A stretch of DNA of 64,000 nt from Rhodospirillaceae bacterium (lineage in GTDB: Bacteria; Pseudomonadota; Alphaproteobacteria; MPNO01; UBA2964): assembly GCA_002720855.1 (NCBI GenBank), contig PBIN01000015.1, positions 620,001 to 684,000 of the forward strand, in the 5' to 3' direction. The position numbers and the translations under genes were made by a program. Under the pieces are notes generated by a model. It was not told the DNA's origin, did not search any database, and was given only the letters and a program-made list of their open reading frames with translations. This document shows positions 32,256-34,566 of the stretch, one piece after another (the stretch's first letter is position 1; every line of letters starts with the position of its first letter).

Positions 32256-33304
32256 TATCGATTGTCCCGGAGCCAACTAGACACAAACTCGCGCAAGTCG
32301 GCAACGTGATCAGGGGGTGTTGGCGGTAAAACACCATGACCAAGATTAAAGACAAAAGGTTTTTTCGACAGAATATTGAGAATGCGTTCTGCTTCCGCCT
32401 TCATCGCATCACCCCCTGCCAACAAAAAGATCGGATCCAGATTTCCTTGCACAATAGTCCCTGGCTGCAATGTTTCACGTACCCAATTGAGTGAAATAGT
32501 CTGATCCAGACTTACAGCAGACACGCCATTAATTGCCGCCACCTTCAAATAGCGATGTCCTGCCAATCTCGGAAAGACAATTATCGGAACATTTGGGCAC
32601 TTACACTTGACCCCGGCAACAATCCGCGAAATAGGATCCAACGACCATTTTTCAAAAGCAGTATCCGGCAACATTCCGGCCCAACTATCAAAAATTTGCA
32701 GTGCATCGGCACCAGCTTCGACCTGCGCAATTAAATGATCCGTGATTGCAGAAATCAGAATTTCGATTAATTGACTGAACTGGTCTGGTTCAGAAAAAGC
32801 CCAAGTTTTTGTCTTGGCAAATTCGCGACTTGTACCTCCCTCCACCATATAGGTCGCAATCGTCCAGGGCGCTCCTGCAAATCCGATCAATGCGGTATCG
32901 ATTGGTAACTCAGCACGAACTATTTTAAGCGCGCTATAAACTGGTTCTAGAAAGTCTCTTAGCCCGTCAAATCTTAATTCTTTAATGTCGCCAGAATTTG
33001 CAATAGGCGTAAGCACCGGCCCGATACCCTCCTTGAAGGAAACCTGTTGGCCCAAGGCATCGGGAACAACCAGAATATCGGAGAAAATTATCGCAGCATC
33101 GAATCCGAAGCGATTGATTGGTTGTAATGTAACTTCCGCTGCCTGGTCAGGTGAATAACAAAGATCAAGGAAAGTACCGGTGTTTTTACGGACCTCGCGA
33201 TACTCCGAAAGATATCGACCAGCCTGCCTCATCAACCAAATCGGTATCTGATCTGATTCGATTCCATTTAAGGTGTTGATGAATAAAGAATTGGTTTTAG
33301 GCAC
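32255..33304 (-). CDS. hemE: Uroporphyrinogen decarboxylase
   Basis: A 349-residue enzyme that decarboxylates the four acetate side chains of uroporphyrinogen III to give coproporphyrinogen III. The N-terminal signature PIWLMRQAGRYLSEYR (about residues 21-36) provides the substrate-binding Arg and Asp region, and GFAGAPWTIATYMVEGG is the second family block. It overlaps hemH by one base (TAATG). Its 5' end borders the proposed origin, as in Caulobacter. A partial parS-like word lies inside it at 32470-32479 but is not symmetrical. Confidence 0.96.
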   Translation of the reverse strand: MPKTNSLFINTLNGIESDQIPIWLMRQAGRYLSEYREVRKNTGTFLDLCYSPDQAAEVTLQPINRFGFDAAIIFSDILVVPDALGQQVSFKEGIGPVLTPIANSGDIKELRFDGLRDFLEPVYSALKIVRAELPIDTALIGFAGAPWTIATYMVEGGTSREFAKTKTWAFSEPDQFSQLIEILISAITDHLIAQVEAGADALQIFDSWAGMLPDTAFEKWSLDPISRIVAGVKCKCPNVPIIVFPRLAGHRYLKVAAINGVSAVSLDQTISLNWVRETLQPGTIVQGNLDPIFLLAGGDAMKAEAERILNILSKKPFVFNLGHGVLPPTPPDHVADLREFVSSWLRDNR

Positions 33305-33341
33305 AGTCTTTAATCGAGATTACTCAGCGTGAAGAACCTAC

Positions 33342-33393
33342 CTACTACTAATATTCTATATATAAAAGAATTGTAGTTGTAGTAGTGGTGCGG
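33342..33393. repeat. DnaA-trio-like repeats flanking an AT-rich core
   Basis: CTACTACTA (33342-33350) and TAGTTGTAGTAG (33374-33385) form inverted trinucleotide arms around the AT-rich core. On the bottom strand, going from the DnaA boxes, the order is GC-rich patch, CTACTACAACTA, AT-rich core. This is the same order as the bacterial origin basal unwinding system (GC cluster, DnaA-trios, unwinding region). Confidence 0.6.
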
Positions 33394-33421
33394 AAATTGG
33401 GGATTGTTTTTAATCCGGAAT

Positions 33422-33680
33422 TTATCCACGGGGCTCTTTGTAGTTGATAAAGTTTGGACAAGTTGTGAATGATTGTATTTCAACGAAGAAAATACCGCCT
33501 TTCTGTTAAATTAATTGACGCAGCTAAGTATAGAATCCGTTGTTGATAACCTTTAATTGTGGATATTGAAGGTTATCCCGCCATGTGAATTTGCTATGCA
33601 CAATCTAAATACCTGTTCATGGATTCTGCGTAAAAAACATTGTGTAAATTACGTTGTGCATAAAGCTGGTTTTATCCACG
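33422..33680. promoter_or_regulatory. Cluster of DnaA boxes
   Basis: Box-like 9-mers are on both strands. Plus: 33422 and 33672 (TTATCCACG), 33594 (CTATGCACA). Minus: 33464 (TCATTCACA), 33541 (TTATCAACA), 33558 (ATATCCACA), 33655 (TTATGCACA). Density is far above chance for 260 bp. Confidence 0.88.
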
Positions 33681-33705
33681 GTTTGAGAATTTTTTGGAGA
33701 GAGTT

Positions 33706-34566
33706 TTGAACAAGAAATTTCACTTGCATCTGGTGTCTGATTCAACAGGCGAAACAACCCATAACTTGGCACGCGCTTGTTTGGTTCAGTTTGAAAATCT
33801 GGAAATAAATACTCTCGAACATAGTCAGATACAAAATCAAACACGAATGGACCGTGTAATTTCTTCAATCGAAGAGCTGCCAGGCGCTGTCATTTATACC
33901 ATGGTGGATAAATCACTGAGCGCAGAATTGGAACGTGAATGTTCCCGTCTGAGCCTACCCTGCATAAATGTGCTTGGGGGTATAATCTCGAAACTCGAAA
34001 ACTATTTCGGACAACAAATCCGCCGCCAGCCGGGCCGACAGCATCAACTTGATGCTGGCTACTTTGATCGGATTGAGGCAATGCAATTTGCCTTGAGTCT
34101 TGATGATGGACAAAATCCCAACTCATTACAGGAGGCTGAAATTGTTCTGGTTGGTGTATCACGGACATCAAAAACACCAACATCTCTTTATCTGGCAAAT
34201 CAACGCGGTATCAAGGCAGCCAATATCCCATTTGTTCCTGGTGTGCCGTTGCCGTCCGAACTTTTTTCGGAGAAGACTAATTTTGTTATCGGTTTGACGA
34301 CATCGCCTGAACGCCTGGTGCAAATTCGCCGTAACAGGATGCTTCAACTCAACGAGTTAAAGGAAACGGACTATATAGATTTGGAGCGCGTGCGTAGCGA
34401 AGTCCTTGATGCACGAAAACTATTTACCAAAATGGGATGGCCAATCATTGATGTCAGCCGAAAATCAATTGAAGAAACGGCATCGGAAATTCTAGAGCAT
34501 TATGCGGCTTACAATGAAAATAGCGTTGCATCAAACGCTGTTCCGTCTCACATCGAGCAAACGTGA
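33706..34566 (+). CDS. ppsR: Pyruvate phosphate dikinase / PEP synthase regulatory protein
   Basis: A 286-residue bifunctional kinase/phosphorylase (DUF299) that controls PEP synthase or pyruvate phosphate dikinase by ADP-dependent threonine phosphorylation and Pi-dependent reversal. The opening FHLHLVSDSTGETTHNLARACL and P-loop GVSRTSKT at residues 150-157 (VLVGVSRTSKTPTSLYLA) are family signatures. I place the start at TTG 33706 because GGAGAG lies a few bases upstream and the upstream TTG at 33694 overlaps that site. It corresponds to the gene that borders oriC opposite hemE in Caulobacter (RP001). Confidence 0.93.
   Translation: MNKKFHLHLVSDSTGETTHNLARACLVQFENLEINTLEHSQIQNQTRMDRVISSIEELPGAVIYTMVDKSLSAELERECSRLSLPCINVLGGIISKLENYFGQQIRRQPGRQHQLDAGYFDRIEAMQFALSLDDGQNPNSLQEAEIVLVGVSRTSKTPTSLYLANQRGIKAANIPFVPGVPLPSELFSEKTNFVIGLTTSPERLVQIRRNRMLQLNELKETDYIDLERVRSEVLDARKLFTKMGWPIIDVSRKSIEETASEILEHYAAYNENSVASNAVPSHIEQT

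Follow-up and report, generated by a model that had tools for sequence, protein, structure and literature searches.

A very probable chromosomal origin in an alphaproteobacterial hemE-ppsR gap, with trio arrays facing each other across its AT-rich core

We propose that the gap between hemE and ppsR in the genome of a Rhodospirillaceae bacterium is very probably its chromosomal replication origin. Furthermore, we consider it highly likely that this gap is an oriC whose AT-rich core would be opened by DnaA by way of two weak boxes (box1 and box2) and an adjoining array of trios, in a manner like that of the Bacillus subtilis basal origin unwinding system (BUS), and that a mirror array between hemE and the core constitutes a second, inverted trio array.

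The hemE-ppsR gap as chromosomal origin

The window analyzed here is the whole stretch of 64,000 nucleotides at positions 620001-684000 of contig C15 in the source genome, labelled G000 (G000:C15:620001-684000). The gap, 404 bp long, is flanked by genes with Pfam URO-D (hemE) and Kinase-PPPase (ppsR) matches, with ferrochelatase, UPF0093 and Rho on one side and Maf, shikimate dehydrogenase, CoaE and an RNase_T exonuclease on the other; the gene names are those usual for these Pfam families, and COG1806 corresponds to ppsR. The dnaA gene lies away from the gap, at C15:754447. The origins of Caulobacter crescentus and Rickettsia prowazekii are placed between hemE and the COG1806 gene in the published account (PMC1914354), and the likeness to the Caulobacter oriC location that had been originally predicted is borne out by these flanks.

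We call the gap the origin based on this shared gene order together with a change in the sign of the GC skew and an excess of DnaA boxes. In GC skew measured on sampled 20-kb stretches of contig C15, all eight stretches to the left of the gap are negative and all four to the right are positive. The complete genome G002, from the same genus, has its gap at 2778 kb; the 12 stretches measured from 350 to 2750 kb are all negative, while from 2790 kb round to 200 kb nine of 10 stretches are positive and one stands at -0.003, a further stretch having been masked. The skew switch that had been suggested as a check is hence located at the gap in the sampled stretches of both genomes. Within the gap five boxes come within one mismatch of TTATCCACA (0.19 expected; none of 1000 shuffles reaches five) and nine within two (1.78 expected; none of 1000 shuffles reaches nine), in line with the at least eight box-like 9-mers first noticed there. 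In its position between hemE and ppsR, its skew switch in the sampled G000 C15 and G002 stretches and its cluster of DnaA boxes, the gap corresponds to the hemE-COG1806 type of alphaproteobacterial origin.

33305..33708, no strand: oriC, the hemE-ppsR intergenic gap (Pfam flanks, skew switch, box enrichment), very probable
33422..33430, plus strand: DnaA box TTATCCACG, 1 mismatch; 8 of 9 columns invariant in four genus genomes
33442..33472, minus strand: three weaker boxes with 2 mismatches, at 33442 (TTATCAACT), 33453 (TTGTCCAAA) and 33464 (TCATTCACA)
33541..33549, minus strand: DnaA box TTATCAACA, 1 mismatch
33558..33566, minus strand: DnaA box ATATCCACA, 1 mismatch
33594, plus strand: fourth weaker box, 2 mismatches
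33655..33663, minus strand: DnaA box TTATGCACA, 1 mismatch
33672..33680, plus strand: DnaA box TTATCCACG, 1 mismatch

Our family sample comprised 13 genomes, of which 11 have a hemE match and supply the family origins compared below, G001 and G004 being excluded for want of such a match. The start codon of hemE is apparently GTG (window 33302-33304; a GTG is aligned in G002, G003 and G007), with no Shine-Dalgarno sequence obvious by eye. The ppsR gene (window 33709-34566) appears to be in decay within the genus: it is open in G000, G003 and G007; in G002 (C1:2778357-2778641) matches are confined to residues 1-62 and 246-280; and in G005 and G006, each about 70% complete, there is no ppsR match (loci L229 and L230 are also listed for ppsR), with frames that by eye are aroE- and maf-like adjoining the origin and hemE. 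The origin module is retained.

The unwinding module and its conservation

On the hemE-proximal side of the strong boxes, the minus strand reads, in order, box1, box2, a CCA spacer, the triplets CTA CTA CAA CTA CAA and an AT-rich core.

33398..33406, minus strand: box1 CAATCCCCA, weak DnaA box with core TCCCCA, ending 12 bp from the first trio
33389..33397, minus strand: box2 ATTTCCGCA, degenerate second box, ending 3 bp from the trios
33386..33388, minus strand: CCA spacer at the GC-cluster position, where the class consensus is GGC
33371..33385, minus strand: right trio array CTACTACAACTACAA; predicted DnaA-bound strand plus (TTGTAGTTGTAGTAG)
33351..33370, no strand: AT-rich core, 20 bp, probable unwinding element; 18 of 20 columns invariant in four genus genomes

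The original prediction had placed the AT-rich stretch, the run of CTA/CAA triplets and the GC patch CCGCACCA correctly, with the exact limits now set at 33371-33385 for the trios and 33351-33370 for the core; the GC patch overlaps box2. The prediction had also placed the nearest box 36 bp from the trios and had worried over the loading geometry. This was incorrect, in a way that favors the interpretation: the strong box that comes next is the one 36 bp off, and box1 and box2 lie only 12 bp and 3 bp away, though these nearer boxes are weak. Each has three mismatches to TTATCCACA, and a scan allowing two mismatches consequently overlooks them. The core of box1 is identical to TCCCCA, the W-box consensus reported for Caulobacter (PMC4285127).

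The distance of the better box from the trios is described as peaking at 10-13 bp with a limit of 16 (PMC8287927), and the 12 bp of box1 falls inside that peak, as the 3 bp of box2 falls inside the limit, both boxes having three mismatches. The complement of the triplets supplies N-A-N trios in the number that characterizes a BUS, three or more, with GAT as the preferred form. The published search rule further has the first-located box within two mismatches of TTATCCACA (PMC8287927); in the window both boxes stand at three, so that the rule would not call this module, whereas box1 is at two mismatches in G005, G008 and G012. By analogy, then, the module probably works like a BUS, though it is no hit by the published search rule.

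In all 11 family origins the trios are preceded by a box1 that fits [CT]AATCC[CT]C[AG], a pattern composed after inspecting the sequences. At offset 21, eight of these origins carry the triplet CTA, while G003 and G009 have CCA and G012 has TCA; the boxes and trios of B. subtilis have a 21-nt offset identical to that of the window.

We also examined loci across the class. From a training set of 109 loci, 84 were anchored (E<0.1) and 25 were unanchored; 77 of the 84 are nonredundant and long enough, and 72 of these lie outside the family handles, loci L033-L111 carrying no family label. The first HMM was seeded with sequences bearing the left arm, and a fresh set of 68 loci was scored with a right-side-only model, itself derived from the same 84 training loci; this anchored 31 on the right strand at E<0.1 and none on the wrong strand, with 37 unanchored, among them one locus that duplicates a training locus. 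The 103 loci outside the known family handles (72 plus 31) yield a gapless consensus, TAATCCCCG-nTATCCACA-GGC, in which TAATCCCCG is box1 and nTATCCACA is box2; beyond it comes a tract almost devoid of G. Its layout is that of the window. In the second check that had been suggested, boxes and trios prove to be kept both in close relatives and as a consensus over the anchored alphaproteobacterial loci. Box1 lies within two mismatches of TTATCCACA in 19 of the 103 and box2 in 40. In the trio window TAG occurs 100 times against 49.5 expected by composition in the 72 loci and 51 times against 24.9 in the 31 fresh ones; a 3-nt lag ranks first in the training set and, in the fresh set, first for TAG, but a lag of 4 ranks first for AG. 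On the trio-complementary strand G stays at or below 6% per position over about 20 nt past the boxes (103 loci). GANTC, the CcrM methylation site, peaks within the class AT core, with 22 occurrences in one 10-bp bin in 77 loci and nine in the 31 fresh loci; the gap of the window has two, at 33533 and 33622, and its AT core none.

An inverted trio array on the hemE side

The left flank of the core, absent from the original prediction, holds a second array.

33342..33350, plus strand: mirror array of trios, CTACTACTA (minus strand TAGTAGTAG), oriented toward the right array

On the top strand CTACTACTA is followed by the AT core and then by TTGTAGTTGTAGTAG; since CTACTACTA faces TTGTAGTTGTAGTAG across the 20-bp core, each strand bears TAG trios. 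A further CTAC adjoins the array at 33338-33341. Within G000, CTACTA and TAGTAG facing each other at a distance of 8-38 nt are found at two places, the origin and once in contig C12; the reversed pattern occurs 22 times. Read on the bottom strand, TAGTAG follows the core on the hemE side in eight of the 11 family origins (G000, G002, G003, G005, G006, G007, G010 and G011) as against 0.23 expected by shuffling, the eight not being independent events as the genomes are related, and the controls GATGAT and CTACTA are found there in none of the 11. Its offset from box1 is 56 in G000, G002, G003, G005 and G007, 53 in G006, 54 in G011 and 63 in G010, the offset in G005 being kept despite a core sequence unlike that of G000.

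The array might alternatively be a relic or a chance run of trinucleotides with no role. It is missing or reduced in three of the 11 family origins (G008, G009 and G012), and in fresh class loci left CTA is at composition level, as such a reading would have it; we nonetheless regard it as unlikely, given the count of TAGTAG origins, even among related genomes, and the strong invariance of the array within the genus beside a diverged leader. In four genus genomes 12 of 13 columns at 33338-33350 are invariant versus 10 of 34 in the adjoining hemE leader (Fisher on 13 versus 33 columns, P = 0.0002).

We considered the mirror array as a class-wide trait and rejected it on the fresh set. The raw left-bin counts in 77 loci were 28+43 for CTA and 0+4 for TAG, with 24+27 for the same-base ATC. 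In the 72 training loci left CTA numbers 55 against 38.2 expected and ranks 8 among the 64 trinucleotides; in the 31 fresh loci it numbers 15 against 15.3 (rank 30), and its excess there is restricted to the next window, the core (13 versus 6.6). Pyrimidines are abundant to the left in loci outside the family, and composition accounts for left CTA in the fresh set and in part for that in the training set. A 3-nt period on the left side is not clear, the CTA counts at lags 3/4/5 being 4/5/3 and 2/0/0, from few pairs. Exact left CTACTA outside the family is sporadic, with four of 72 loci (1.1 expected) and two of 31 fresh loci (0.5 expected), and left ATCATC and TAGTAG are at zero in the 72 and the 31. 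The gap of L061 (Candidatus Endolissoclinum faulkneri) also has TACTACTAG left of its core; this locus, for which not enough sequence upstream is available, was omitted from the counts. As TAGTAG occurs in eight of the 11 family origins and left CTA in fresh class loci is at the level of composition, the mirror array is a family-level variant of an ordinary origin, common to most members of the family.

A minority of other alphaproteobacteria carry an inward box on the left, and the window's family does not. Over the leftmost 60 bp, nine of 72 loci have an inward TTATC[CA] versus 2.4 expected by shuffling (opposite orientation, one), as do six of 31 fresh loci versus 1.2 (opposite, none), three of these six (L142, L143 and L155) coming from one family, f44; combined, 15 of 103 class loci have it on the hemE side versus 3.7 expected, with one in the opposite orientation. 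Neither the window nor any of the 11 family origins has an inward-facing box next to the mirror array, and a DnaA filament there would consequently lack an obvious dsDNA anchor.

It is also rather improbable that CTACTACTA is no DnaA element and belongs instead to hemE transcription running leftwards out of the origin, as part of the promoter or of the early transcript. The array does lie 37 nt upstream of the hemE start, directly past TATA-rich minus-strand DNA, and the Caulobacter origin contains a strong hemE promoter. However, a sigma-70 scan, which leaves other promoter types outside its scope, gave one site in total, on the plus strand at 33444 (1.9 expected by chance), and no minus-strand promoter here, and in-phase TAG repeats that are retained as the core changes (G005, G006) are not what a promoter would lead one to expect. 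Very unlikely is a hairpin, cruciform or dimeric protein site to whose palindrome the TAG repeats would be incidental: the window does hold an inverted repeat, its strand folds better than shuffles (z -2.9) and in G010 and G011 the arms by eye pair slightly past the trios, but among the four of 11 family origins folded the effect is not conserved (z -1.6 in G002, -1.3 in G005, +0.2 in G006).

Proposed opening and related systems

Upon the computed skew, boxes, synteny, module geometry and conservation, and the mirror array observed in most family origins, we infer by analogy the following steps of DnaA binding and opening and any role of the mirror array. DnaA would first occupy the stronger boxes at 33422-33680 and then take the weak tandem pair box1/box2 (33389-33406). 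These would position an ATP-DnaA oligomer for entry onto the plus-strand trios (33371-33385), and the oligomer would open the AT core (33351-33370) as in the B. subtilis BUS. After opening, the minus strand would also present TAG trios through the mirror array (33342-33350), the likeliest role of which may be to maintain or enlarge the open complex through DnaA engaged on the second strand. The DnaA of G000 aligns over residues 23-465 with chain 8btg_A, which we take to be B. subtilis DnaA; I193 of that chain, presumably a second ssDNA-binding residue, aligns with L217. R264, the arginine finger, and I190, which functions in ssDNA binding in B. subtilis DnaA (PMC8287927), align with R288 and I214, respectively.

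With the Caulobacter Cori and other hemE-COG1806 origins the gap shares its flanking genes and DnaA boxes (PMC1914354). It differs from Cori in its mirrored trio arrays and in having no exact match to the CtrA site TTAA-N7-TTAA, for which reason we do not file it as a Cori-type, CtrA-controlled origin. With the B. subtilis BUS it shares the order box-box-GC-trio-AT core, the 12-bp and 3-bp spacings and the TAG-type trios; its boxes, however, are weaker, it has a second, inverted array, and the genome codes for a DciA-type protein (10 of the 13 family genomes, G000 included, have a protein of the DciA family). The Thermotoga maritima eTrio and the Escherichia coli AT-cluster are similarly extra elements beside the first trio or DUE, reported to aid opening or helicase loading (PMC10316083, PMC12122000), but the latter, as described, is AT-rich and not a trio, unlike the mirror array. 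The B. subtilis DnaD recognition element (DRE), the complement of the same trios, is reported to bind DnaD (PMC10201434); like the mirror array it is a sequence signal lying on the strand that the DnaA filament does not occupy, whereas the second strand of the window has trios of its own. Our search found no description of inverted trio arrays in literature represented partly by abstracts, though one may exist.

One could further envisage that two inverted arrays around one AT core allow two DnaA oligomers to form on opposite strands, each guiding one helicase, a prospect we hold to be quite unlikely. If true, such dual-strand loading would amount to sequence-encoded placement of the second helicase without a DnaD-type element. 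How the second helicase is placed on the other strand is called unclear in published accounts of B. subtilis (PMC10201434, PMC10721633), and an origin found in nature that bears a trio array on each strand would be a direct test case for this step. More generally, the consensus of weak box, box, GC and trios offers an easy guide to where many alphaproteobacterial origins probably open.
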